From assembly GCA_021397835.1 (NCBI GenBank), contig JAJFZO010000896.1:5682501-5746500 (forward strand): DNA of 64,000 nt, read 5' to 3'. This stretch comes from Moringa oleifera. Lineage: Eukaryota > Streptophyta > Magnoliopsida > Brassicales > Moringaceae. The translations under genes were made by a program, and so were the position numbers. Within the stretch, counting starts at the first letter, position 1. Each line of letters opens with the position of its first letter. The notes beneath the pieces are model-generated. The model worked only from the letters and a program-made list of their open reading frames with translations. It was not told the origin of the DNA and did no database searches. Shown in pieces: positions 1,619 to 64,000 of the stretch.

Positions 1619-4018
1619 ATAATTAATTGAGTTGAATACTTAATTAGATCTAATATTTAATTAAGTCTAATAAAAAATTAGCATAATATCCAGTTAAGCT
1701 TAACAACAAAATGCGCATAATAAAAAGTTAAGCCTAAAATGTAATTGAGCCTAGTGACTAGTTGGACTAAAAATTTGTTGGGCTTAACAATTTGTTACCC
1801 TAAAAAAATTAATTAGGACTAAGACTAAATTGAGTTTAATAAAAAATTATGCTAAATATATAATAAAACTTAATAAATAATTAGGCTTAATGTATAATTG
1901 AGCTTAAATACATAAATGAGATTAATAAAATATTAAACCTAAAAGTAGGCCTAATAAATAATTGAGCCTAATAATTAAATTGATTTAAAATATAATTGCG
2001 CTTGAGCTCTAATAAAATCTAACAATTAATGACCTCATGATTAGAGTAGTCTAATAATTAATTGAGTTAAAAATTTAATTATGACTACGAATTAATTGAG
2101 CCTAATAAAAAATTAAGTTAATCTATAATCAGACCTAATAAATAATTAGATCTAATCTATAATTTGGACTAAAAATAAAATAAGACTGATAAATAATTGG
2201 GTCTAAAATATAATTAAGTTCAAGACTTATTTGGACCTAACTTGTATGAACCAACAATATAATTGAATGTAACATGCATGAACCCGTGATATAATTAGGA
2301 GTGACGTGCATGAATCCAAAACATAATTGGCGTTAAGAATGAACTGAGTCTAAGAAACAATAAGACCTAAATAATGATCCAACTTAAGATACAATTGAAC
2401 ATAAAAATTAATAGGACTTAATAAGTGATTGGGCTTAACATTTATTAATTAGACCTAAAAATTAATTTGATCAAATATACAATTGAATAATTAATTTAAC
2501 GTAACAATTTAATAGGTCTTATAATTAATTAGCCCTAAGATTTGATTAAATATGATAAAAAATTGGGCTTAATATACAATTTGACGTAATAAATTATTGT
2601 CCTTAATATATAATTAAGTAGAAGAATTAAATCAGCCTAATAAATAATTAATTGCGCCTAAAATTTGGTTATGTCTAAAAATTGGTTGGATCTTATAAAA
2701 AATTGTGTTTAACATATAATTAGATCTAAATAGGCACATGGATATAATTAAGTCTATTAGTGGAACAAAAATGATAAGGTTAATATGTATCAGCCTAACC
2801 AATAATTTGATGTGTAATTGGGCTTTACAAATAATTTACTAAGATATGATCAGATCTGAAATCAATTGGACATGAGATTTAGTTAAGCTTAAGAAATCGG
2901 ACATATAATATAACTAAGGTTCATATATAATTGTACATACAATATAATGAGATACATATAATTGGACTTAAGATATAATTAAGTCTAAATAAATAATTTA
3001 GTTTAATATAAGTGGGCATATTTTGAATAGGTCATAGATATAATTCAGCTTAATAATTAATTAGGCTTAATATTTATTGGGTCTAACTATTATTGACCTT
3101 ACGGTGAATGAACACAAGAAATAATTGCATTTCAAAATGCATTAAGCCTAAGACATAATTGAACCTAACAATTAATTGGGTCTAATAATATATTAAGCTC
3201 AATAAATAACTAGGCTTAAAATTAAATAGGCTTAATAAATACTTCGGCTTAATATATAATTATGTCAGATAGTTAATTAAATATAAGATATAATTGGTTC
3301 CATCGATGAGTTAGACACAAAAGAATTAGTGGACTTAATATTTAATTCAGCCTAACTACTACTTGGATCACAATAAAAAAATTAGGTTTAGTATATAATT
3401 ACATCTGAAAACTAAATGGTCCTAATAAATGTTTGATATTGATGTGTAATTAAGCCTAACAATTCATTAGGCTTAACAATTCGCTAGGCTAAATAATTGA
3501 GCCTCATATTTGATTGGGATGAGAAAAAGAAAGACAAGATAATATATAATTAGGCTTAATAAATAATCAAGCTTATTAAATATTGCACTTCATAAAATAT
3601 TAGACCTAAGATGTGATTGAACCTAATAATTAATTAGAGCAAATAATTTTGATCTTATAATCCATTGAGTCTAATAATTAATTTTGCTTAAGATTTAATT
3701 TTTTGTAGAATTAGTTAGGCCCATTGTCTAAAGTGGATCCCAAAAAAAAAAGTTAGATTTTGTCATATATAATGGAGCCTTAAATATATTTGAGCCCTAT
3801 AACTAACTAGGTCTAAGATATAATTGAACTTAGCAATTAACAACATAACAATTAATTAGGCCTAAAAATTAATTGAGTCAAATAATTAATTACGCTTAAA
3901 TATAATTTAACTGAAGATATAAATAAGCATAACAAATTAAAAACCAATAAAAAATTAGATTTAATATATAATTTGACCTAATAAATTATTAGACTTATTA
4001 TATAAATAATTGAACTTT
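1619..4018 (-). repeat. AATT-rich minisatellite, array A2 (reverse orientation)
   Basis: This is the same degenerate minisatellite as the preceding array but on the opposite strand. Units now read AATTGAGCCTAATAA or AATTGGGCTTAATAA instead of TTATTAGGCTCAATT. The switch falls at about 1610-1625, where forward units end in CTAATTAATTAGACC and reverse units begin at AATAATTAATTGAG. The array fades into plain AT-rich DNA near 4018. No gene is seen. Confidence 0.8.
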
Positions 4019-5878
4019 TTAATCAAGTTTTTTATTTTTTTTATCAATTTTCCATACAAACTTTTTAATTTAGTCTAAATTAAACATTATTTTTAATTTT
4101 TTAAAATAAATTATTTATATAAAAGATATTTTACAATGAACTTTGTTTTGAAATTTGTAAGAAATGCAAATAAATATTCAAGCTACCATTAAAAAAAATT
4201 AGAATTTTTTGAGTAGTAAAATTATGTTCATGAGTTTCAAAAATTTTAAAAATATATAACTTTGATACTCAAAAATTTTGACTTCTTTTTGTGTATTTTT
4301 TCATGCTTGTTGGAAATTTTAAGCTAAAATCAGTTATGCAAAATCACTAATCTGAATTGGTTAAAAAAACTGTAAAAACGATTAAAAAATGCAAATAATA
4401 TAAAGCTAATTTTGATCTTTTTTTAATATTAATTATTGAATTATTAATCTTACTCTTGATAAAAATTATATAATATTAAAAATTATAATTAGTTAAATTT
4501 AAATTTTATGAAATATAATTAAATTAAAAATTAAAAATTTTCATATTATCTTTCATTCCAACATGAGAATAAGGATACAACAAGAAATATTATAATATTA
4601 GATGAACCATTTTCACTAATTCAAAATTTAAAATTAATATATTTTCTCTTAATATTTCAAAACTATAAAAGAAGACTTAAACATGGTTTCCATAAAATGT
4701 GTCCCACTCTTTTGTAAAATTTCTATTTAACTCTTCAAATGGATTTATTTTAAATTAAAAATAATAAAGTTGATAATGAGATATATTAATCACTTAACAT
4801 TTTTCACATGAACTATTTCAAATGAGAATTAAAATTTTTTTCTTTTTGTTTTTTGTGTATGGGCACTTGGTTGGTATTCAAGTGAATAAGTATAATTAAA
4901 TCAAGCAGGCTAGTAATACCATAAAAAATTAATTCTAAAAAAATAATATTATTTTCTATTAAACTTCGAATAAAGACGTTTCTCATCATTTCTTCCTCAT
5001 TACATCAGTATTTTTAACATGAAATCCAAACAATATTTGAAAAAAATTAAGTAAAAAAACTGTATATAGCACTCTGCTTCTCACGTGCCTTTCTTTTATG
5101 TATTTTACATGCAAGTATCATGTATGTAATACTTTATTTTTTTAATTAATCTTTATTATGTTTATAATGTATAATTAAGAAAACAAGTTAACATTGAACT
5201 AAATACCATAATACAATAATTAAATTAATATATAATATGATAATTTTTTTCTTTTTTTAATGTTATCATCGCAAATTATTTACAGAGAGAAAATTGAAAT
5301 TCAAATCTACTTATTATTAAGAAGAATATAATAATAATAATAATGATCATAAGATTATGATAAATTTGATAATTATAAAAATAAAAATAATTATGATAAT
5401 AATAAAGATAATGTTGATAATAAGAATAAAAAATCATAATTGAAATAAAAATGAAATTTTAAATGGAATATAAAAAAGTTCAACAAAATGAAAATGAAAA
5501 TTTAAAAATAAAGAAAATAATAAAAAAATTAATAGTAAGGAGACATTAAAATTTTTTTAAAAATAAAAAATGTGGTAAAATAAAAAAACTACATGAAATT
5601 TGGAAAAATTAAAATATTTCCTTGAAGAAAATTAAAAATAAAAATACAAAATGAAGCAAACAAAATAAAAAATGGTCTCCTTTTCTCTTACTGTTTTCTT
5701 CAGCAATCATTCATTTAATATTAATTTATTATTAAAATAATATAAATTAAAAACTAAACATATAAATAGAAAAACAAAATCAAGATGTGATTCTCTCTTT
5801 AACTTATTATTCTTCACAATGATCATTTTTCCTTTATAAAAAGCATGATAAGAGATTTTTCGTTCATATATAGTGACC
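4019..5878. repeat. Dispersed AT-rich block, copy 1 of 4
   Basis: This AT-rich segment recurs at 28926-31427, 33779-33904 plus 38477-40745, and 49959-51515. Shared landmarks in order are an AATATTAATTATTGAATTATTAATC tract (near 4424), a 'gcacttggttggtattca' segment (near 4863), 'cacgtgcctttctt' followed by 'tttacatgcaagtatcatgta', an AAT/GAT microsatellite (5330-5420) and a CTCTCTTT stretch. Each full copy lies directly beside an AATT array. The copy stops near 5878 at a junction with a retrotransposon tail. It has no convincing ORF. Its nature is unknown: an unclassified mobile element or a segmentally duplicated unit would both fit. Confidence 0.7.
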
Positions 5879-5954
5879 TAGCTGACTTCAGTCCATATCA
5901 TGCTGAGAAAGACATTAAAGACTTGAAGACAAGTTTTTTTCAACTAGGGCAGAT
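5879..5954 (+). mobile_element. 3' internal tail and polypurine tract of a Ty3/gypsy element
   Basis: This short stretch precedes an LTR and ends in CAACTAGGGCAGAT, which corresponds to the tract CAACTAGGGGAGAT next to the 3' LTR of the 33.9-38.5 kb element (read there on the minus strand, 34552-34565). I take it as the last internal bases plus the polypurine tract of a plus-strand gypsy element. The rest of its internal region is absent, replaced on the left by block copy 1. Confidence 0.6.
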
Positions 5955-6582
5955 TGACATATGAGTGGTTATATTACTATATTTATCCCACGATGCTATG
6001 TGAAGAACAGTTGGCATGCACCTTGGAAGATTTTCTAGAGAAAAGGTTATGGAAGCTTGTTCACTGTTGGATAGTTGGCATGCACCTTAGCAATCTTCCA
6101 AAGAGATTTATTTCAGTCCATTAACTTCATTTTCTTGTCAAATAAATGCATTAAATGATTTAGTTATACCTTAATGATTTTCAAAATCACAATGCATGAA
6201 GGAGGGTTTTCATGCACTAGTATTTATTTTCATGCTTTAGACTGAGAAAAGAGCTTAGACTTTAGTTATATGTCTAAAAACTCTTTGAGTTCTTTCTTCT
6301 GTCTCTGTATGTTTGGTTGGGAGCCATTGAGTGGTGAGAAACATCTTTGTGTCTCTCAAGGTGATGTTTATATCCCTTTGAGTAGTCCTTAAGTAGTGAG
6401 TTGTAAGGTTTCTGTATCCTTGTTTATTGTCCTTATGGTAGTGATTTTCTATATCCTTTTAGTATTAGACTTGGTGGTCAGCCTTTTACTCCCCATTTTA
6501 ATTCAAATCTATTCAAACTTATGCTTGTACTCTCCAAACATCATTTCCATTCTTATTACTATTCCTTTAAAATACGTTATCA
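5955..6582 (+). mobile_element. LTR of gypsy family L (copy 1)
   Basis: The ~628-bp LTR begins TGACATATGAGTGG and ends GTTATCA, matching the TGACATAGGAGTGG...GTATCA ends proved by the TSD-flanked element at 33905-38476. A polypurine tract precedes it and a decayed primer-binding-like stretch (CTTAGCATCAGAACA, 6583-6597) follows it, so both internal borders touch one LTR. A short ORF of 63 codons inside it (6396-6587) also appears in other copies and has no recognisable product. The LTR is followed by telomere-like repeat instead of gag. Confidence 0.75.
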
Positions 6583-6597
6583 CTTAGCATCAGAACA

Positions 6598-7138
6598 CTA
6601 ACCTGTAAACCCTAACCACTAAGCCCTAAATCTTAATCCCTAACCCTTACACATTAACTCTAATCCCTAAGCATTAAACCCTAACCCTTGACACTAAACC
6701 CAACATCTTGAACCCAAAAGCCTAAACCACTGAACCTTAAATCCTAACCTAACCACTAAACCCTAATCCCATACCCTAAAAAGAAAATCCTAAACCCTAT
6801 CCTCAACCCCTAACTCGTAAACCATGAACCTTAAAACCTAAATCTAAACCCCAAATCTAAAATCTTCACCCTTGAACCTAGTGCCCTAACCCATAAACCC
6901 TCAACCTTATACTTGAAACTCTAATCCTTAAACCTAAAATGCTGAACTCTAACCTTAATCCCTTGCCTTAAATGCTAAATCTACACCTCTAAACCTTAAG
7001 GCCTAACCCCTAAACCAAAAGCCCTAAACCCTATTCCTCAACACCTTAAACCCTAATCCCTAAACCTTAAACCCTAAACACTAAATCCTATCGTAACACC
7101 ATAGCCTCTAAACCTTAAACCCTAAAACCAAACTCTTA
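6598..7138 (-). repeat. Degenerate telomere-like repeat, C-rich (CCCTAAA)
   Basis: Imperfect units of CCCTAAAC, CCTTAAAC and CCCTAACC fill the segment. Perfect runs of CCCTAAA are very short, so this is not a functional telomere but a decayed interstitial telomere-like array. It starts directly after an LTR of family L and runs into a small AATT array. It carries no gene. Confidence 0.8.
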
Positions 7139-7319
7139 GACCTAAGATGTTATTAAGCCTAATAGTTAATTAAACCTAGCAAATAATTAAGTCTAATAAT
7201 TTTTTAAGTTTAATAATTTATTGGGCCAAAGATGTGCCTAAGAATTAGTTAGGCCTAAAAGTAATTGGGCTTAATAAACAAATGAACATAATATTTTATT
7301 AGGTTTAATTAATCATTAC
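7139..7319 (-). repeat. AATT-rich minisatellite, small array A3
   Basis: This short array has units such as AAGCCTAATAGTTAATT and AGGCCTAAAAGTAATTGG, in the same orientation as 1619-4018. It separates the telomere-like array from the outer end of the Tat element. No gene is present. Confidence 0.65.
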
Positions 7320-9165
7320 TATCACAGCTTATTTTCGATCGGGCTTGAATTCTTGAAGCTGTTTAAAAAAATGTATTTTGGGTGATTCTATTTCAAAAAG
7401 ATTTTTAAAAAAAAATAAAAGGAGTCACCACCAATCCTTTTTTTGGTGTGATTGGACATTGAAATTCATTTGTTTTCAAACAAAATAAATAAGGCAACAT
7501 TGGTCTTTCAAAATTAAAAATATGTGTTCGAGAGTCGATCACGTGTGGGGAAGAATAAACACCCCCACGGCACCCAAAAATTGGTACCGATTCATTATGA
7601 TTATTTTTCGGTTTTGAAATTCATTTGATTTATCCTAAAAATAAGTCTGAAAAAGAAATTATATGAAAACAAATGAAATTTTAATGTTTTGGGGAATATA
7701 AAGGTTTAACTTTTGCTTTGCCTTTAATTCTTGAAATCATTTTATGAGAGAAAATGTAGAGGTTTCACTCTTATTTAACCTCTAATCTTAAAACATTTTT
7801 TTATGATGGAGAATATAGAGGTCTCACTCTTGTTCAACTCCCTAATCCTCAAAATATTTTTTATTATGATTCATGTGAATTCAATGATATTTTAATGCAC
7901 ATGTATAGCCACATTATATAGAACATATAAATCATTTTGAACTCCCATGGCCTTAATTCTATTAATTGAAAATAAAAAGGAATTAAGGGCCATATACACA
8001 AAGTATTTTAATGATTACAAAGATTTTTCTCTTAGATTTTTTTATAAATGTATGTTCAAATATGAAAATTCTCTCTTGAAATTTTTTCACATTTCTCAAA
8101 AAAATATTAACTAAATTTTATATCAAAGAGTGTGAAAATCTCCCTTGAGATTTTTTTTTATATTTTCTCAAAAATATCAAATAAATATTTTAAAAATTAA
8201 TTTGTATTAAGAAATATGAAAACTAATCATTGAGATTTTTCATATTCCTCAAAACTTGAAACACTTATATTTCAGAATAATTTTTTTGTTATTAGAAAAT
8301 ATAAAAACCTCTCTCTTGAGATTTTTTTCATATTTTTCAAAATAGTAGGTAGTTTTTTATATTAAAATGTAAAAATCTCTCTCTTGAGATTTTTTTACAT
8401 CCCTCAAAAACTAGAAATATACATGTTTATTTATTTTTTCTTTTAAGAAAAATAATTCTTACATAAGAAAGATGAAAACTCTCTTAAGATTTTTTCATAC
8501 TTTTCAAAAGCTTTAATTATAGATTATTGTTTTTAAAATAATTTTTTTAAAAAATCAATTCTCTTGAATGATTCATGCTATCAAAAATTTAAAGTATTTT
8601 TTATTTTAATTTTCTAATAAATTAAAATAACATCAAAGTGATTTCAGCTTTTTTGAAAGGAGAATTAAAATTGAGTAAAAAATATGAAAAAAAAACTTGA
8701 TTTACCTAATAATTTTATATTATGAATAATCTAAATTTATTATTTTAAAAAAATCTTAATATCTTAAAGTTACCTATCTTTTTCTCTTTTTTCTCTTTTT
8801 TTTTCTCCTTTTTTGTTCTTTTAAGTAAATTTTATGTATTTAATATGAAAGCATATACTACCCCCAGCCACTTTTTTTTATTTTCTTTTTTTAGTTTATA
8901 TATCCTATCCCATCTATTTTCTATTAAATTATATTTTTTTTACTATTACTTTTGCACACTATTTATTTTTTACTTAACTTTTTATGTATTCAAGAAAGCA
9001 AAGAAAAAATTATGCGTACTTGTAAATAGAGAAATATAAATACATCAATATACAAGGTAAATAAAGATGAATGTGAGAATAATATGAAGATAAGTAAAAG
9101 GATACATGTGTACAAGAGGAATATATATATATATATATAATAACAATTAAGTAAACAAATTAAAG
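7320..9165 (-). mobile_element. Tat 3' LTR, outer part (left of the CACTA insertion)
   Basis: This part aligns along its first 1.55 kb with 24354-25934: both start T(A/G)TCACA(G/A)CTTATTTTCGA and share GTCACCACCAATCC / GTCGCCACCAATCC and the 'ggtgtgattggacac' area. The outer terminus has decayed from TGTCACA to TATCACA. From about 8040 to 8560 it holds imperfect ~80-bp tandem repeats built on GAAAATCTCTCTTGAGATTTTTTCATATT. A 64-codon ORF (8845-9039) and an (AT)n run (9125-9138) lie near the insertion site but have no supported function. Confidence 0.8.
9163..9165. repeat. Target-site duplication AAG, left of CACTA-1
   Basis: The 3-bp AAG directly before CACTA is repeated directly after the terminal TAGTG at 15192-15194. 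Three base pairs is the standard duplication for CACTA elements. Confidence 0.85.
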
Positions 9166-9470
9166 CACTATAAAAAAATTAAAAAATAGCAACATAATAT
9201 AGTGACTGATGTTGTCAATCGCTAAATAATGACAAAATAGCGATAGATTTATTACACAATGAAAATTTTATCATAGCGATGAAATACTGACAGATTAGCA
9301 ACACACATTAATGACAGATGCTATCTTCGTCGCTAAATTTATCTTTAATTAATTTATTTAAATTTTTAATTAACTTAACAACAGATAAGCGATCAAATTT
9401 TCATCGATCATTAATGAAAGATCTAGCGACTACAAAGATTCGATCACTATTTAGGCAATGCAGCCTAGTG
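9166..9470 (+). repeat. CACTA-1 5' terminal repeat and subterminal repeats
   Basis: After the CACTA terminus come several copies, on both strands, of a motif close to TAGCGACAGAT (for example AGCGATAGATT near 9240, GTTGTCAATCGCTA near 9212, TTCGTCGCTAAAT near 9328). In En/Spm elements such subterminal motifs bind the element's own DNA-binding protein. The matching cluster is at 14790-15180. Confidence 0.8.
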
Positions 9471-10890
9471 ACCACCCCATGGGCAGTCGTGAAGGTTACA
9501 AAGTTGCTACCTTCGAAGGCAATGATGCATGGTGGCCACAGAAGCAAGCTGGCCACCAACATGCCACCTTGGAAGGCAGCAATGCATGGCCATCGCTAAA
9601 GCAAGGTGGCCACCAACTTGCTGCCTTCGAAGGAAACCATGCATGGCTGCCTTAGAAGCAAGGTAGCCATCAGGCTTTCCAAGGTAGCCATGCATGGCCG
9701 TGATTGCTGCCATAGTTCGAAGGTGGCCATGCATGGACGCTACCATGGCAGCCATGCATGACCTTTGAAGGTGACTACGATGGCCACAAAGGAGGAAGCC
9801 ATGTCCTTTGAAGGCGGTTGCCATGGCCGCGAAGGAGGCAGCCATAGCAGCCCACAAAAGTAGCCACAGCATCCACGAAGGCATTCATGATAGCCCACAA
9901 AGGCAGCCATGGTGCCCACAAAGGTAGCCACAGGAGCCCACGAAGGCAGCAACGGCGCGCTGAAAGAAGCCAAGGTGCTAAAGAAGGCAGCCATGGGAAC
10001 CCACAAAGGCAGCCACGGTGCCCACGGATACAGCCATGGGAACCCACGAAGGCAGCCACGGTGGCCCACAAAGGCAGCCATGGGCACCCACGAAGGCAGC
10101 CATGGTGCCCACGAAAGTAGCCATAGGCACCCACGAAGGTAGCCACGGTGCCCATAGAGGCAACCATGGTGCCTACAAAGGCAACCACAGCCGCCCATGA
10201 AGGCAACTACGAGAGCCCACGAAGGCAACCATGGCCTTCGAAGGCGGCTGCCATGGCCTTCGAAGGTGGCAGCCATGGCCTCGAAGGCGATAACCATGGC
10301 CTTTAAAGGTGGCAACCATGGCCTTCAAAGGCGATAACAATGGCCATCGTGATAGTGAAAGTAACCATGGCTGCCGTGAAAGCCATGGCTGCCCCAAAAG
10401 ACTCCATGCATGGCTGTGAAAGCAGCCATGGTTGCCGCTAAAGCATCCGTGCATGGCCATAAAGGCAGCCATGCCTGCCGCTAAAGCGTCCATGCATGGC
10501 TGCAATGGTAGCCATGGCCTTCAAAGGTGGTAGCGTTGGTTGCCGCGAAAGCCTGCATGCATGGCTACAAAGGCAGCCACAGCTGCCCCAAAAGCCTCCA
10601 TACATGGCTGTGAAGGCAGCCATGGCCGCTCTCAAAGCATCCATGCATGGCCACAAAGGGAGCAATGCATACTGCCAGAGCATCCATGTATGGCCACAAT
10701 GGTAGCCATGGTCTTCGAAGGTGGCAGTGATGGCTGCCATGAAAGCCTCCATGCATGGCCGTGAAGGCAACTGTGGCCTTCGAAGTTGGCAGCCATGGCC
10801 TTTTAAGGTGGTAGCCATGGGTGCCGCGAAAGCGCTCATGCATGGCCTCGAAGGGGACTGCCATGGAAGCGAAGGCAACGTTGTCTTCCC
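9470..10890. repeat. GC-rich minisatellite inside CACTA-1
   Basis: About 1.4 kb of tandem repeats with the core AAGGCAGCCATGG occupies this stretch. Between 9850 and 10210 the unit is about 21 bp (GCCCACGAAGGCAGCCATGG). Between 10205 and 10340 it becomes GGCCTTCGAAGGTGGCAGCCA, and from 10340 to 10880 a longer unit with GCATCCATGCATGG dominates. The composition is far richer in G and C than anything around it. Open frames on both strands encode low-complexity Ala/Met/Trp-rich or His/Gly-rich peptides; they follow from the repeat and are not listed as genes. Confidence 0.85.
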
Positions 10891-12211
10891 TTGATTTTAT
10901 TTTCAATGTGGATGCAACAATGGACTGAACTTCCATCGCTAGATTTCACTTCTAGCGATCGCCACTTACTTCCGTTGTTAAAGTGCTTATAAATTGAAAC
11001 CCTAATTTTTTTCCTTTCGCGCAAGTACTGTTTCCTTTCCCCCATTTTCTATTGCTGTCTCTGCTTCTGTCTTCTTAAAATTTTTCCTTTTCGTCCGGCT
11101 CCTTTTCCCTCTAATTTTATTGTTGTCTTTACATCTATCGGGATTATGATTGCTCTTTTCACCAACAAGCGACTCTGTTTTTCCCCAATTTGTCTTGTTG
11201 TCTTAGAGCCGAGTCTTTACCATTCTCTTCCTGCTCGGCATCTTAGTGTGTGCAATTTTCTCTTCTATTTTCTCCACTGTGAGTAGTCATTTTCATCTTT
11301 CCTCTTTACTTGATAATTTATGTGGTTAATTATCGAAATTATTGATGATGATATTGATGATTAAAAAATCTTGTATAGGAATATGATAATTATATTTGAT
11401 AATTATAGAAATATTATAAAATTTTTTTTGTTATTTATTTTATGTTTAAATAAATTTAATTTATGGTATATTATTAGGTAATTTTTTAATTTGGTTGTAA
11501 TTTAAGATAAATATTTTAATTAGATTTTCATGAAATTTAAATTAGTTAGATATTTATTAAATTTTATAATTGTTAATTTTATCTATTAATAAATTTAGTT
11601 TATGTTATATTATTTAGAAAATAATTTAATTAGTTTGTAATATAAGATAAATAATTTAATTAGGGTTTTATGGAATTTAAATTAGTTAGGTATTAATTAA
11701 ATTCTATAATTGTTAATTTTGTAGATTAATTAAAAATTTTATTTATATTAAATTAGATAGATAATATTTTAATTAGAATATAATTTGAGATAAATAATTT
11801 AATTAGATTTTTATGAAATTTAAATTAGCTAGATGTTAATTAAATTTTGCAATTGTTGATTTTATCTATTAATAAAATTAGTTAATTTGTTATTGATTAC
11901 ATAGACAATAGTTTAATTACATTGTAATTTCATGACATGAATAATTTAATTAATTAGGTTTTTATGAAAATTAAGTTACTTATATGTTGGTTAAATTTTG
12001 GAGTTGTTAATTTTATTTTTTCAAATAAATTTAGCTTATGTTAAGTATATATTTACATTTGGAAGATTATTACTAATGTTGAGGAAATTTTGTTTATATG
12101 TTAATCAATTAAATTAATCTATTATATGATAATCATAAAATGTTATTGTTAGCAAAGTTAGATATCATTTGGTTAAATATAGTTTCGTATCGGGATATTA
12201 TGTTTGGAATT
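10891..12211 (+). other. CACTA-1 leader region and AT-rich intron-like stretch
   Basis: No gene is supported here. At 10890-10990 the subterminal-type motif recurs (TCGCTAGATTTCAC, TAGCGATCGCC). A pyrimidine-rich section (11020-11285) ends in a donor-like CTGTGAGTAG, and an AT-rich section follows with four imperfect ~120-bp repeats carrying TAATTTAAGATAAAT and ATGAAATTTAAATTAG (11500-11960). This resembles a 5' leader exon and a long first intron of the transposase transcript. Confidence 0.45.
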
Positions 12212-57189: not shown

Positions 57190-57424
57190 ATGATTTTGGG
57201 TCTAGGGTTCAAGCTCTAGGTTGTAAGGTCTATGGTATATGGTCTATAGTTTAGAGTCTAGTGCATAAGAGTTTAAGGGTCTAGAGCGCAAGGTTGAGTG
57301 GTCAAAGGTCTAGAGTTTTAGGGTCTAGAGTCTAGGTTTTAGGGTATAAGAGTCAAGGGTCTAAAGTTTAGGGTTCCAAGATTTAAGGTTTAAGATTAAA
57401 AGATTAGGGTGGTAGGGTCCAAGG
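57190..57424 (+). repeat. Telomere-like repeat between two LTRs (U3)
   Basis: It corresponds to 45391-45595, with the shared words GTGCATAAGAGTTTAAGGGTC and GTCCAAGGTGATAC at the right border. Confidence 0.75.
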
Positions 57425-57742: not shown

Positions 57743-58455
57743 TGCTAAATCTTAAAATCATTAGACCTAGACCCCAAAACCCTAGATTGCATACCTTAAA
57801 ATCCCAAAACCTAAAAACACTAAATCCTTAGGTCTTAGACTTGAGAGTTTGACTGTAAAACCTTAAACCCTAAATCTTTAAACCCTAAAAACATAGATCT
57901 TAGACCCCTTCGAAAGCCCAAAACACTAGACTTGATACCTTAAAGCCTTAGATTCATAGTACTAAAACCCTAGACCTTAAACCATGATCTAAAACTCTAA
58001 ATCATAAAATCTTAAAACCTAAGACATTAGACCTTAAAATCCTAAAGATGAAAACACTAAAAACAAAAACATAAAATGTTAACCCGAGAACCTTGACCCT
58101 GATTCCGACCCAAGACCTTAGAAATCTAACACTATACCCTAAACCCTGAATCTTAAAACCTAAAACATTGACAACACCCTAGCCCAAAAAACTCTAAACC
58201 TAAAACCTTAGAAACATAAACAATAAACTTTAGACCTTACACCGTAGACCCTAGGTCTTAAATCCCTAAAACCATAAAACCATAAAACCCTAGGCCCTAG
58301 AACCTAAAACCCTAGATCATAGACTTGAGACCCTAAAATCCCATAACCCTATAGCCCAAAAATGTGGACGCTAGACACTAAACTTGAAGCCCTAAAACTT
58401 AGACTGTAATTTGTAAGTAATAGACCCTATACCCTGATAACTAAACCTTAGATCC
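57743..58455 (-). repeat. Telomere-like repeat, C-rich (U3)
   Basis: It aligns with 45919-46540, including the common TAATTTGTAAGTAATAGAC (58407) and TTAGATCCCATG words near its end. Confidence 0.8.
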
Positions 58456-59160
58456 CATGCACTAGTATAATTTGCAAGTTTGAAAAAGGATCATGATATG
58501 GCTCCAAAGATATGTATTCAACGAGAGTTAATTCCAAGCTTGCTCTCCTAAGCAAGGCGATGTCAAAGGGGCAAGAAAATGGTGAAAGATCTCTTGACAG
58601 CAAGCAAACATCCAATTCTTCTACACCAAGTGAAAGGAAGTGCTTTCAAATGTCATGGTTTTAGGCATATTGCTTCTTATTAGTGGAAAAGTACGCAGTA
58701 GAATTTGATAATTTGATGCCAATGGAGAGCTTGTAGAACCAGAGGAGCAACCTATTGGTAGATACCTTGGGAGTCTAAAATATGAGATTTCTAAAGTGGT
58801 TAAACTTCTATCATATTGGTCATTGAATGATACGTGCAAGTTGACTTTAAAAACTAAGAAGCAACAGAAGTTTGAAAAGGGATCATGGTATGGTTCCAAA
58901 GATGTGTATTCAAAGAGAGTTAATTCCAAGCCTACTCTTCTAAGCAAGGCGGTGTCAATGGGGCAAGAAAATGGTGAAGGATCTTTTGATAGTAAGCAAA
59001 CATGCAATTCTCCTACACCAGGTGTTAGGGAAGGCTTCAAATGTCATGATTTTAGGCATATTGCTTCTTATTGTCCGAATAAAAGGATCGTTACTTTAGT
59101 TGATGATGTTAGTGATGGAAAAGAAAGTGAAGGTAACAATGACCTAGAACATAATGGTAA
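58456..59160 (+). pseudogene. gag relic of gypsy family L (U3), internally duplicated
   Basis: After ~15 bp of LTR (CATGCACTAGTATAA) the sequence jumps into gag; the part equal to 46560-47690 is deleted. The stretch AAGGATCATG(A/G)TATGG to CATATTGCTTCTTATT is present twice (58487-58681 and 58877-59070), separated by an upstream gag piece. The second copy lies in a frame (58796-59305) with EGFKCHDFRHIASYC, a zinc knuckle whose first cysteine is glycine, then RIVTLVDDVSDG. The frame is cut at 59160 by CACTA-2; codons beyond are transposon sequence. Confidence 0.82.
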
Positions 59161-59163
59161 TGA
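59161..59163. repeat. Presumed target-site duplication TGA, left of CACTA-2
   Basis: The three bases directly before CACTACAAG. The partner copy lies outside the window, so this is only expected. Confidence 0.4.
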
Positions 59164-59189
59164 CACTACAAGAAAAAGTGGATTATTTC

Positions 59190-59400
59190 ACACTAGATAT
59201 TTCACAGTTTTAATAACAACTGTGAATAAAAGGATTTTTATTCATAGTTGTAATAAAACTATGAACAAAGTTTTTTTTTATTCACAGTTGTTACTAAAAC
59301 TGTGAATAAAAGATATTATGTTCACAGTTATGCTTATAACTATGAACTAAAAAAAAGTTTTTATTCACAGTTATGTTTATAACTGTGAACAAAAGAGATG
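59190..59400. repeat. CACTA-2 subterminal palindromic repeats, outer cluster
   Basis: Five or six ~30-bp imperfect palindromes, TTCACAGTT(N)6-9AACTGTGAA, are spaced every ~35 bp. Each could form a hairpin and each can be read by a binding protein on either strand. The sequence family differs fully from the TAGCGACAG type of CACTA-1, so the two transposons belong to different families. Confidence 0.8.
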
Positions 59401-59481
59401 TGCACCATTGAATTTTTTTGCCTTTGTTACAAGTTTTCCTTTCTTTTCTTCTTCCGTTTCTTTAACCCCCTCCTGAATCAG

Positions 59482-59523
59482 AATGAGCTGCTGTTTGCCA
59501 AAATTGAGTACATGTAGAAGAGG
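59482..59523 (+). pseudogene. Captured AGAMOUS-like MADS-box exon (K region, exon-5 equivalent)
   Basis: Exactly 42 bp lie between an acceptor (CCTGAATCAG) and a decayed donor (GC in place of GT: AGG then GCAACT). The translation is NELLFAKIEYM, a stop, then KR. AGAMOUS-type MADS-box proteins have NELLFAEIEYMQKR at this position in the keratin-like K domain, which mediates dimer and tetramer formation of these nuclear transcription factors. The stop replaces the glutamine codon CAG by TAG. A 42-bp length fits the small K-region exons of this gene class. Confidence 0.85.
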
Positions 59524-59718
59524 GCAACTCTATGCTCATAATCCCCTTAAATTTCTAATATGGTAGCATAGTTTAAACAAGCATATTGAGTTTCCATTGA
59601 TTTTGCCATTGAAAATCACTTCAGTAGCTTCAGGTCTGAATTGGAAAATTAGTGTCCACTTATAACCTGCAAATGTTTTCTTTCTGTCTCATTGAAACCA
59701 TTCATGGGTGCCTTGTAG
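59524..59718 (+). other. Retained intron of the captured MADS-box fragment
   Basis: About 195 bp between the two 42-bp exons, ending in GGTGCCTTGTAG, a good acceptor. Its presence shows capture of genomic DNA, not of a processed transcript. No other feature is seen in it. Confidence 0.7.
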
Positions 59719-59760
59719 GAAATTAACTTGCATAACAATAACCAGCTTCTCCAAGCAAAG
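59719..59760 (+). pseudogene. Captured AGAMOUS-like MADS-box exon (K region, exon-6 equivalent)
   Basis: Another exon of exactly 42 bp, bounded by CTTGTAG and GTACTC, translates without interruption to EINLHNNNQLLQAK. In AGAMOUS-lineage proteins the residues after the EYMQKR block read (R)EIxLxNxNxxLRxK, which matches in register. This is the end of the K domain. It continues in phase with the next exon. Confidence 0.88.
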
Positions 59761-59843
59761 GTACTCTCTCCCTCTTTCTCCCTCTCTTTCTCCTCTGTTT
59801 TTGCATCTTTTTTTGATTTTTCGATGGATATATATATAAGCAG
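59761..59843 (+). other. Short retained intron of the captured MADS-box fragment
   Basis: This 83-bp intron starts GTACTC and ends TATATATAAGCAG. It contains a CT-rich stretch (59767-59795) and an AT run close to the acceptor. Both borders are still functional-looking. Confidence 0.7.
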
Positions 59844-60021
59844 ATATTTAAGAATGAGAGGTACCAGTAAAACATGAACTTGATGCCAAGAGGAGGTAAT
59901 TAACTATGAGGTCATCCAGTCTTAATCCTTTGATTCCAGGAAATTTTTTCAAGTCAGTGCATTACAACCCACAAATCATCACTACTCACGCCAGGATCAG
60001 ATGGCCCTTCAATTAGTGTAA
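59844..60021 (+). pseudogene. Captured AGAMOUS-like C-terminal exon
   Basis: It opens IFKNERYQ and then hits TAA where a glutamine is expected. MNLMPRGGN follows before another stop, and after net +1 frameshifting the tail reads SALQPTNHHYSRQDQMALQLV-type sequence in two parts: ALQPTNHHYS and RQDQMALQLV, then the stop TAA. MNLMP and the terminal (R)QDQMALQLV are the conserved C-terminal motifs of C-lineage AGAMOUS proteins, so the origin is specific. Exon order, sizes and phases match the host gene class. A GTAAGT overlaps the stop (60018-60023). The MADS DNA-binding domain is absent. Confidence 0.9.
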
Positions 60022-60374
60022 GTCCCACAGATTTTTTGCAATTATAAAGAAGTAAATCCAACTGGATATATGTTGTAAAATTAAGCCAAACCATGAATTC
60101 ATTCCAAACGAATTAAGAGGATCCAGTGCTCCAGGTTTGATTAATGAAGCTGTAAACAAGATATGTACGTACTCTCTGTAGGTGTTCCCTTGACAAAGCT
60201 TAAGAGGCAGGGACCAACAATGGGGCAGAATTGCTTGAAGTTTAGCATGCTGGCTTCCCCCTTGAAAACTTAACTTATTTTTCCATGTTTCACTGCTACT
60301 TAATTAATAAACGGTCAGAAACATGGTCAATATGCTTAATATGTTCAACTTGTTAAAATACATAGGAATTAGGC
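60022..60374 (+). other. Probable 3' untranslated part of the captured MADS-box gene
   Basis: Sequence after the stop has an ordinary non-repetitive composition. A possible acceptor (ACTCTCTGTAG, 60172-60182) precedes GTGTTCCCTTGAC and GGCAGGGACC, which could be a 3' untranslated exon joined from the GTAAGT at the stop. Where the captured segment ends is not visible. Confidence 0.45.
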
Positions 60375-60665
60375 TTGAATTATATAAGTGGTAACAAGTA
60401 CACGTGCACATTGTGTAGCTTATTCAGATGGAAGTCATGCCCTCTCCATAAGGTGATGAGAACATATATAAAAAGCAAATCCCTTTGCCGCCTCATAGCA
60501 GTAGAAGGAAAGGGATGCTCATGCACGCCCACCACCACTAAGCCGAAGTTACAGTCAGCCTTCCTCAGCCCTCCCCCTTCTCTCGTGCGTTTTCTTTTTC
60601 TGGTGAAGCTGTGAATCCATGTGCAAGTGAATGAAGGAGCCAGTGACAGTGAGTGAATAAAGGCA
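60375..60665 (+). other. Unassigned segment, possibly a second captured fragment
   Basis: This is unlike the surrounding AT-rich DNA, with a TATA-like ACATATATAAAAAGC (60462-60476) followed by CCGCCTCATAGCAG, then a C-rich leader-like stretch (60510-60600). A 79-codon frame (60375-60614) covers it, but I recognise no protein and the composition suggests promoter and untranslated sequence. It lies between the MADS fragment and the inner subterminal repeats. Confidence 0.35.
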
Positions 60666-60790
60666 CCAACCTTTGTTCACAATTTCAGCCATAACTGTCA
60701 ATAAAGGGTTTTATTCACAGTTTTGGCCATAACTGTGAACAAATCTCTGCATCTTTTGTTCACAGTTATGGCTATAACTGTGAACAAAGC
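60666..60790. repeat. CACTA-2 subterminal palindromic repeats, inner cluster
   Basis: Three palindromes of the same family as the outer cluster (TTCACAGTT(A/T)TGGC(T/C)ATAACTGTGAA) lie here. The captured segment therefore sits inside the subterminal repeat zone, splitting it into an outer and an inner cluster. Confidence 0.82.
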
Positions 60791-61021
60791 CTTACATCTT
60801 CTTTAGAGACATCGAAAAATTAATTCATTCATTCTTTTTCTCCAATTACTCAAACATTTCTTCGATTCTTCAAGTAAGAAGTGTGCACTGTGAAGGGAGC
60901 CTCTCCGGGCTGTAGATGTGCAAACCAAACATTCAATCGGTTCTAACTATTTACATCGACGGGATTAAGAGTGTGTGCAGTGTTGCTTGCTTTTGGGTTC
61001 CACATCTCCTCCCTTTTCTCG
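60791..61021 (+). other. CACTA-2 leader exon candidate
   Basis: This moderately GC-richer stretch after the subterminal repeats ends in TTCTCG followed by GTAAGTTTAATCC, a strong donor at 61022. Position and signals fit the first, untranslated exon of the transposase transcript. There is no long frame. Confidence 0.45.
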
Positions 61022-61189
61022 GTAAGTTTAATCCTTTCTCCCAAAATATTATGCCATCTTTTTTGTTATAATGCAGAAATTATTGTTCCTTGATTTTTGG
61101 CTTTTAGTTTCATTATTTTTAAGCTCACATTCGGATGTGGTTCTCCTCCCATTGGGATTTTAGATATATGCATGGTTTCATTTTCATCA

Positions 61190-62440
61190 GGATTTTAGAT
61201 CTATTTTGAGGTTCAAAATATTTATTAAGATCCAAGATTTAGAAGTATGGGTTCCCGAATGTGGGATGAGAGTTCCTAGGTGAGGGGTTCTAGATCTAGG
61301 CTGAGAGTTTCGGATCTGAGTGAGAGGAGTTCTAGATCTGGGCTGGTGTTTTAGATTTCCACTGAGTATTTCAGATCTGGGTGAGAGGAGTTCCAGATCT
61401 GGGTTGGGGTTCTAGATCTAGGTTGAGTGTTTCAGATCTGGGTGAGAGGGGTTCCAGATCTGGGCTGGGGTTCCACATCTAGGCTGAGAGTTTCAGATCT
61501 GGGTGAAGGGTTCCAAATCTGGGTTGGGGTTCCAGATTTGAGTGAAGGGTCTGGGGTTCTAGATCTGGGTGAGGGGTTCCAGGTCTAGGCTGGAGTTTCC
61601 AGATATGAGTGAGGGGTCTGGGGGTTCTAGATCTGGCTGAGGGGTTCCAGATCTGGACTACGGATTCTAGACCTAAGTGAGGGGTCTAAAGGTTTCAGAT
61701 CTGGCTGAGGGGTTTCATCTCGGGGCTCTAGATTCCACATCTATGTTAGAGGTTCCAAATCTAGGCTAAGGATTTTAGATCTGAAGTCCTATTTTGGATT
61801 TGTACTAGGGATTCTAAAACTGTCTGCAGGGCTTCAAACATGGGCTAAGGATTTAATATCTTCGTTGGGATTTCAAATATGTGCTGGGAGTTCCAAATTT
61901 AGGTATGAGGTTTTTAATCTAGCTTAGAATTTTAGATCTATGCCAGATGTTCTAAATCTGGGTTCAAGGATTTAGATTTTGGCTAGGTATTCTAGATCTT
62001 GGTTGAGATTTTGGAGGTATACTAGGATTTTCATATCTGGGTGCAAGGTTTTAGATTTGGGTTAGAGATTCCAGATATTGGTTAGGATTTCAGAGCTTGA
62101 GGGTTCAAAATTGAGGGTTCAAGATTCCAAACCTGTGCTGGGGATTGTAGATATTGGTGCGAGTTTCTACTTCCATTAAGATTGTAGATCTAGGCGTGGT
62201 TCTACTTGTATCATTGTTTCACATCTGGGTTAGGAATTTCAGATTTATGTTGGGGGTTCCAGATTTATGATGAGGGTTTTAAATTTGGGTGCGAGATTTT
62301 ACTTTCATTAGGGTTACAGATCTGACATGGTTCTACTTCCATCGAGGTTCCAAATCTAACAGATCAAAATGTTGACCTTCATTGATTGCAACAAAGGAAG
62401 ATGTGGTTCTACTTTTATCCAGGTTTCAGATCTAGCTGAT
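61190..62440. repeat. Minisatellite in CACTA-2 (AGATCTGGG type)
   Basis: About 1.2 kb of tandem units with the core TTCCAGATCTGGG(C/T)TG(A/G)GG, roughly 20 bp each, best preserved between 61300 and 61680 and drifting to both sides. The unit contains AGATCT (a palindrome). It lies in the presumed first intron. It is flanked by two similar donor segments (61022 and 62461). No coding capacity is seen. Confidence 0.83.
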
Positions 62441-62460
62441 TAAAATTTCTTTTCAGTTTG

Positions 62461-63639
62461 GTAAGATTAATCTTTTGTCCCCAATTTATAATTACTTTTT
62501 TTCTTTTTATTAGTATCAGCTTTTATGCTTTTTTGTTCTTTTTCAGCTATTGGCATGGCTTTTCTCCAGCAAATATGACCAAAAAGGAGCTTTGTGGACT
62601 TTGATTTAAGTTTGCTTCTCAAGAAATTTTTAATAGCAAGTGAACTATCATGCAGTATAAATTAGACCATGAGATAAATCATTATCTAAAGTAAAAAGCA
62701 AATGAAATACTCATGGTTTAATATTTAGGATTATGTTATAAATAAAGTATTGAGCAAATAATAGTATTGCATGTAACAATCAAGGAGGAAGAATCTGTAA
62801 CTTTTTATATTTTTATTTTCAATTAATTTACTTTTTGTTTATATATAAATACAAAATTGCATCGATCCACTTGTTCCGATACAAACATTTTTCTAGTATA
62901 TTGAGTAACTTTACACTATGACATTGAAAAATCACATGTCACCATAAGAAAGAAAAATATCCTAATCGGTATTATTTTTCATGAATAGTTGTAGCATGAG
63001 AAAAAGTTTCTAACAATATAAAAGAAGTGTAGGATGAGATTTATATTAATTATTATAATTATTGATTGTAACAAATTAAAACATTTCGTAACTTATACAT
63101 TATAAAGATTTACAAATTTATCTAAAGACTTTATGTGAAATGATGATAGGTTATTTGTTAAAATATTTTAATAATTTAATTTTATGAGATTTTATAATTA
63201 TATTTGTATTTTTGTAATGATTATTAAAAATGAAATAGTAATAATATTTACAATGATCATCATTAAATAAAAAAAAATTGTAATGATATTGACCAAATTT
63301 GGAAAATTTGTTTCAATAGAGGAGATTATTATATGATCCTCAATTTCATATGGGCAGAAGTCCAAGACTAACATTATTAAAATATTAGATTTTATTATTT
63401 TCGTTTATATAATAAATATTTAAATTTAGTTTGATCATAATTGCAATCTGTGGATGATATTATTAATTATTTGATTTCATTTAGAGTGTTGTTAGTAAAC
63501 ATAGTTGATCTTTTATTTTGAATTTTTTGAATATTCATTTTTTCTTAAAAAAGTTGACATCTTAAAAAGTTTGGTAATTGTGATTAATAATAAGTTAATT
63601 AGGAAAATTATTACTGAAACATGATTTGTGTTTTTGCAG
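62461..63639 (+). other. CACTA-2 intron-like AT-rich region
   Basis: It starts with a donor-like GTAAGATTAATC. An acceptor-like TTCTTTTTCAG (62536-62546) precedes a small segment with ATGGCTTTTCTCCAGC, which is open only for a few codons. The remaining ~1 kb is AT-rich without features until TTTTTGCAG at 63631-63639. Confidence 0.4.
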
Positions 63640-63681
63640 GAGAAGATAGTATTGCAAGCTAATTGGGGAATCATTATTAAG
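63640..63681 (+). other. Small exon candidate in CACTA-2
   Basis: A 42-bp segment between TTTTTGCAG and GTAATC reads GAGAAGATAGTATTGC and ends ATTATTAAG. The splice sites are good, but no protein is recognised, so it may be an untranslated leader exon. Confidence 0.4.
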
Positions 63682-63857
63682 GTAATCATTATTTTTTTAC
63701 AAAATTTTATTTAATTGATTTTTTAATTTAATGTAAATTTAAGTTATACTTGTGTAATTTTATATTTAAAATTTATTTCACCAATTAGTAAAAAAATTCA
63801 TTTGTGTACAATGTTAGCGCATTATGCTTAGTAAATATAACCTTAGATACCGTTTTA

Positions 63858-63931
63858 GAATTATAAATGAATATTTTATTATCATCCACGTGTATAACAT
63901 GTGGATTAAATAAAATTTTCATTTATAATTC
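63858..63931. other. Long hairpin near the right edge
   Basis: The outer arms GAATTATAAATGAA and TTCATTTATAATTC are perfect complements over 14 bp. The inner arms (TATTTTATTATCATCCACGTG against CATGTGGATTAAATAAAATT) pair with few mismatches around a ~4-7 base loop. The total is about 74 bases. Function is unknown; a tiny MITE or a structured leader would fit. Confidence 0.65.
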
Positions 63932-64000
63932 TTTAATTGTCCATTTTGGACAGTTTGAAAATGCAATATTTATGTATTGCATATGATGTATAAATCTTGA
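63932..64000 (+). other. Window edge, CACTA-2 continues
   Basis: AT-rich sequence with a short palindrome (TTGTCCATTTTGGACAG, 63939-63955). No coding region begins before the edge. Confidence 0.4.

Follow-up and report, generated by a model that had tools for sequence, protein, structure and literature searches.

The DNA analyzed here, a stretch of 64,000 nucleotides from Moringa oleifera that we call the window, contains toward its right end part of a CACTA transposable element, and within that element, on the plus strand from 59436 to 60033, lie exons 5, 6, and 7 of an AGAMOUS (AG) gene together with the introns between them. The features of this region are given below, with percentages referring to comparison with the intact donor gene and strand given where one applies.

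59161..59163: left copy of the target-site duplication TGA; its counterpart comes after the element's right end, which is at window-equivalent position 72918 (L055:8918)
59164..64000, plus strand: in-window part of the CACTA element, defined by comparison of sister copies; the whole element is 13,755 bp and extends to window-equivalent position 72918 in L055
59164..59177, plus strand: left terminal repeat, CACTACAAGAAAAA; read inward, the element's right end gives CACTATAACAAAA
59201..59394: outer subterminal palindrome cluster of TTCACAGTT..AACTGTGAA units
59436..59667, plus strand: AG-derived end of intron 4, exon 5, and start of intron 5 (donor_rc 6859-7090, 95.3%)
59482..59523, plus strand: copy of AG exon 5, 42 bp, NELLFAKIEYM*KR, with acceptor AG and donor GC
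59662..60033, plus strand: AG-derived end of intron 5, exon 6, intron 6, exon 7, and start of intron 7 (donor_rc 7494-7863, 92.2%)
59719..59760, plus strand: copy of AG exon 6, 42 bp, EINLHNNNQLLQAK, with both splice sites retained
59844..60017, plus strand: copy of AG exon 7, 174 bp (170 bp in the donor), frameshifted, with splice sites retained
60034..60463, plus strand: what remains of an earlier F-box/FBD-LRR gene capture, namely its 3' flank, with C18 (L069) as likely source; right boundary set by eye
60464..60670, plus strand: segment with a TATAAAA-like start, partly tandem-repeated in the longer copies L029 and L030
60671..60798: inner palindrome cluster

An initial annotation, made from the sequence alone, had named a CACTA transposon as the carrier, and this was borne out by the terminal inverted repeat (TIR), the 3-bp target-site duplication (TSD), and the presence of tnp2 transposase domains. 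The left terminus reads CACTACAAGAAAA and is found inverted at the other end as CACTATAACAAAA in the window copy, with the right end read inward being CACTACAACAAAA in four of five sister copies. All six element copies checked had a perfect 3-bp TSD, and palindrome arrays, made of repeated subterminal motifs, occurred near both ends of the element. The tnp2-type domains lie beyond the window, in L055 (PF02992, 3e-93; PF13960, 3.5e-41; PF13952, 2.3e-19), where PF13963 appeared only below its cut-off. As the overlapping open reading frames at L055 positions 451-1929 and 1845-2801 are in different frames, the transposase of the window element looks broken. The AG exons are located between the left end of the element and the transposase, and in the same direction. 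Host gene pieces lie within the TIRs, as in Pack-CACTA elements (AG and F-box in the window copy, and KCS as well in longer copies), but the window element retains transposase domains that a Pack-CACTA element would lack; sisters such as L024/L057 are missing element positions 2472-11242, where these domains sit. Other repeats were noted in and around the element. Its left flank holds a gag-like reading frame at 58476-59163, with a zinc-knuckle-like CHDFRHIASYC recognized by eye, and 170 bp of this flank are duplicated (58476-58645 and 58868-59037, 87%). Farther left, degenerate CTAAACCCTAAAACC-like repeats fill about 700 bp (57770-58460), with the motif inverted at about 57200-57420, and inside the element a degenerate GGTTCCAGATCTGGGTGAG-like array at 61260-62450 separates the captured zone from the transposase.

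Two exons of exactly 42 bp had been recognized from the letters, and we located them at 59482-59523 and 59719-59760; the arrangement of three exons in order on one strand, with introns between them, likewise proved correct (59482-60017, plus strand). When an Arabidopsis AG protein was used as a tblastn query, the exon 6-7 span was detected with an E value of 1.1e-11 and exon 5 adjoined it, although weakly when taken alone (E 0.53). Aligned with the genome's own intact AG gene, the first window piece was 95.3% identical (232 bp, E 1.3e-104) and the second 92.2% (374 columns, E 3.4e-156), across exons and introns in both cases, and these E values exclude a chance match. About 400 bp of intron 5 are deleted in the window copy, and the two AG-derived parts are joined at ATAACC. 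The splice sites had been described as mostly intact; those of exons 6 and 7 are canonical, as is the exon 5 acceptor, and the exon 5 splice donor is GC rather than GT. What had been taken for a terminal exon with its own stop after QLV is exon 7, which in the donor gene ends ..TTAGT at the splice donor GTAAGT, the stop codon being provided by exon 8; the stop seen after QLV is that splice donor read through and is not the stop of the gene. Three codons of the window copy were turned to stops by substitution, and exon 7 is out of frame as a result of its 174 bp versus 170 bp in the donor, so that the copy contains no open reading frame; exon 8 is missing from it. We concluded that the window copy is an eroded derivative of a larger captured AG piece.

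The search for a donor in the same genome, proposed in the initial annotation, led to an intact AG gene on contig C533, whose exons and introns both align with the window and which was the best locus in a protein search (E 6.9e-17, exon 7). Retention of the introns, together with the location of the donor on another contig, upheld the claim that genomic DNA had been captured, and a processed copy was rejected because the introns are retained. The donor occupies the reverse strand of C533 and has eight exons, GT-AG introns, and an intact reading frame of 242 residues, with MADS (PF00319) and K-box (PF01486) domains in its protein. Among solved structures the best match of this protein was the AGAMOUS K domain 8cra_A (4e-39), compared with 9.5e-9 and 4.8e-9 for two SEPALLATA 3 chains; the one named plant protein used for comparison was Arabidopsis AG. 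These matches agree with the AG lineage recognized earlier from the exons and indicate that the donor is probably an AG-lineage MADS-box gene. The first codon of the donor reading frame is ACG, not ATG (L054, donor_rc 2668). Arabidopsis AG also starts at a non-AUG codon.

The longest copy read, L029, contains donor_rc 6102-8249 unbroken (2.15 kb, 93.8%), from inside exon 2 to 402 bp past exon 7, within an element that has its own TIRs and TSD. In L029 the AG piece is flanked by the two halves of an F-box piece, and eight loci carry these halves joined without AG. In one of them, on contig C18 (L069), the 3.56 kb of sequence examined contained no CACTA left end; this locus encodes LRR and FBD portions of a gene of the F-box type (PF23622 and PF08387, in frames pieced together by eye), whereas the other seven AG-free loci start with a CACTA left end. 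This locus matched the AG-free element L070 at 93.0% over 1,918 columns and is the likely source of the F-box/FBD-LRR piece. It also explains window positions 60034-60463: within the interval 59,400-60,670, where AG matches had been anticipated, 59436-60033 is AG-derived as expected, but 60034-60463 matches the F-box gene locus instead. AG promoter or downstream DNA was considered as the source of 60034-60670 and rejected, as there was no match in 24 kb around the donor. Farther left in L070, a 190-bp piece matched a gene of the KCS family at 92.1% and is a third capture. Segment 60464-60670 may be a fourth captured piece, for which no source was found among the best 40 of 147 candidates, all 40 lying within 2.5 kb of known AG-bearing places.

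The availability of AG-free loci allowed the site to be compared before and after insertion. The uninterrupted site, CAAGT/CTGCATGC, is read through in the F-box locus and in all seven AG-free elements, with some base changes. When AG is present, the left joint is CAAGT+GT+AGAAGC.., found in five rows representing two distinct loci (L029 and L032), and the right joint is ..GACCC+AGAT+CTGCATGC, found with some base changes in 11 rows representing nine distinct loci; matching allowed up to two substitutions. The target bases were all retained, the extra bases were GT at the left joint and AGAT at the right, and no target-site duplication was seen at the joints examined. A clean insertion of this kind, with neither loss nor duplication of the target, is what break repair by copying predicts; the added bases fit break repair but do not prove it. 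Inspection of the joints by eye, against the usual Helitron ends, gave no sign of Helitron-like carriage of AG.

We propose that a CACTA element which already contained the KCS piece and about 1.9 kb of the F-box/FBD-LRR gene suffered a break inside its F-box piece, and that the break would have been repaired by copying 2.15 kb of genomic AG, from the interior of exon 2 to 402 bp past exon 7, with the ends joined through a few extra bases. The resulting element, carrying AG in sense orientation after its left end and ahead of the transposase, would then have multiplied by transposition, and internal deletions would have removed parts of the insert in its descendants, one such product being the window copy. 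We consider this account, taken as a whole, highly probable. In the tandem-insertion, or Pack-CACTA, route, described for CACTA elements in a 2026 review (PMC13317346) and in a Pack-TYPE paper (PMC8903248), two neighboring elements on either side of AG would be truncated at complementary ends and transpose as a single hybrid with AG inside. Introns would be retained by this route as well; however, it does not predict the clean insertion, and it needs two deletions ending at a single point of the F-box piece, leaving that piece whole on both sides of AG. We therefore regard it as unlikely for AG, while it may apply to the older F-box and KCS captures.

AG-bearing sequence is present at no fewer than 71 places on 42 contigs, a lower bound assembled from junction matches and other genome searches, one of which scored the best 40 of 153 candidates without the donor in its rows. 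The 24-mer that spans the intron-deletion junction was found at 56 places, and its reversed control at none (up to three mismatches). The initial annotation was therefore right in placing AG inside a CACTA element, but the capture was not made by the window copy, being common to at least 71 places. A tree of the F-box-derived part was made from 34 rows, one per distinct locus with duplicates excluded, and rooted on the F-box locus. The earliest branches were mostly AG-free elements; L029 and L032 came next, followed by longer forms that lack the 5' part and finally by the window type together with the most deleted forms. AG presence changed three times on this tree, with starred branches forcing at least two changes and with a single change in 0% of 200 bootstrap trees. 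The extra changes arose because L068, an AG-free row that is 41% filled and retains only part of the F-box piece, falls inside a starred AG clade, and because L064 shares an unresolved fork with L029 and L032. Without L068 (33 rows), there were two changes, at least one of them forced, and 1% of bootstrap trees had one change. Grouping the AG rows as one clade was not rejected (AU p 0.76 with 34 rows and 0.898 with 33), and with 34 rows the tree in which they were held together was 4.09 log units better than the free search. The placement of L068 implies that the AG-free state can arise by loss or recombination. Note that the deletion forms do not strictly follow the tree: L041 has the intron deletion but is grouped with L030, where that stretch of intron is present. 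A single capture fits these results, with some later loss or recombination allowed for.

To describe what became of the captured sequence, 26 of the at least 71 copies were read and compared with the donor. They differed from it by 714 C>T/G>A changes, 176 changes in the reverse direction, and 295 transversions, with inherited changes counted per copy; the K2P distance to the donor had a median of 0.062 and was 0.051 for L029. In L029 there were 71 C>T/G>A changes against 9 in reverse, and the C>T changes affected 6 of 42 CG, 24 of 148 CHG, and 41 of 597 CHH sites. The copies have thus undergone C-to-T decay, a pattern that methylated DNA would be expected to show. In a five-row alignment of 1346 columns, private C>T/G>A changes numbered 22, 24, 29, and 27 in four long copies versus 6 in the donor; the captured part of the donor thus lacks this decay, with no sign that the donor was drawn in. 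A stop was present in the retained codons of 17 of the 26 copies. Protein constraint on the AG cargo was considered and read as not clearly present, since distinct changes per site (0.315, 0.248, and 0.331 for codon positions 1, 2, and 3) were not fewer in exons than the 0.213 outside them. When expressed per cell, the rates were 0.0845, 0.0315, and 0.0821 for the three positions versus 0.0551 outside exons, and the lower value at position 2 counts against a plain reading of no constraint. Judged from these base changes, the copies look like silenced passengers, and that is the most likely description of the effect of the AG cargo, which probably has no function at the protein level.

Among the 24-mers of the donor mRNA, 287 of 882 occurred exactly in at least one of the 26 copies and 45 of 882 in the window copy, while the control, donor intron 2, gave 0 of 3082. 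These shared 24-mers would permit small-RNA contact with AG but are not evidence for it. A role of the AG copies as a dispersed source of small RNAs that dampen or buffer the real AG gene would be compatible with copying into a break, and both the shared 24-mers and the C-to-T decay, with the methylation it suggests, speak for it; yet the captured part of the donor shows no matching decay, and we find such a role very unlikely. We would likewise give little credence to the broad proposal that CACTA elements gain host genes by copying into internal breaks, repeatedly in the same 5' zone and with older pieces as landing sites, and that flowers receive small RNAs matching AG from this family, which occupies at least 71 places. 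Had CACTA elements instead inserted later into an ordinary AG pseudogene or a segmental duplication, introns would also be present, but this reading is scarcely conceivable and was rejected, as the six copies checked share element ends, differ in their flanks, and have their own TSDs, AG is found at so many places, and a search of copies for the MADS exon found none. The case that the initial annotation had set against itself, an ordinary gene continuing to the left with MADS and K domains, also fails, the element terminus being at 59164 and the full gene elsewhere, on C533.

As a rule, the capture of genes by DNA transposons has to be inferred from what it finally produced. In the present case one genome contains the donor, the uninterrupted second-source site, AG-free elements, the fullest copy, and the deletion forms, so that the mechanism becomes testable at the level of single bases. 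The family also amounts to a natural experiment on whether a floral homeotic gene is affected by copies of itself carried in transposons, and the sequence so far indicates that the donor was spared.

Gene theft by transposons is known in plants, and host gene pieces captured in CACTA elements are established (PMC13317346, PMC8903248, PMC5105172, PMC2528002). AG capture is not reported in the passages used from the open-licence texts PMC8978399, PMC4158355, PMC2890015, PMC9773529, and PMC10291800. PMC8978399 describes an 80-bp AP2 piece in Chenopodium CACTA elements, which is similar to the present case in being a fragment of a floral homeotic gene in the 5' region of the element, upstream of the transposase; in contrast, the AG piece is up to 2.15 kb with introns, its donor and the uninterrupted site are both present, and it occurs in deletion forms and at no fewer than 71 places. 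The Tpn1 family of Ipomoea nil (PMC5105172) also consists of En/Spm-type elements with captured host gene regions, some of which are transcribed there, but its capturing elements are described as non-autonomous, whereas the window element retains transposase domains, although out of frame; AGAMOUS is not mentioned in the main text of that paper. Pack-CACTA and Pack-TYPE elements resemble it as TIR elements holding gene pieces from several loci, but they are defined as non-autonomous, and the tandem-insertion route proposed for them is a poor explanation of a clean internal insertion such as that of AG (PMC8903248, PMC13317346). Cactavine-5 of grapevine (PMC2528002) is a CACTA family with the coding sequence and 3' UTR of a host PPR gene, present in two copies, antisense, and downstream of the transposase, whereas the copies here are many, sense, and upstream. 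The present case is resolved unusually well and stands out for the presence of its donor, for uninterrupted and filled sites that can be compared base by base, for one capture lying inside another, and for the copy number.
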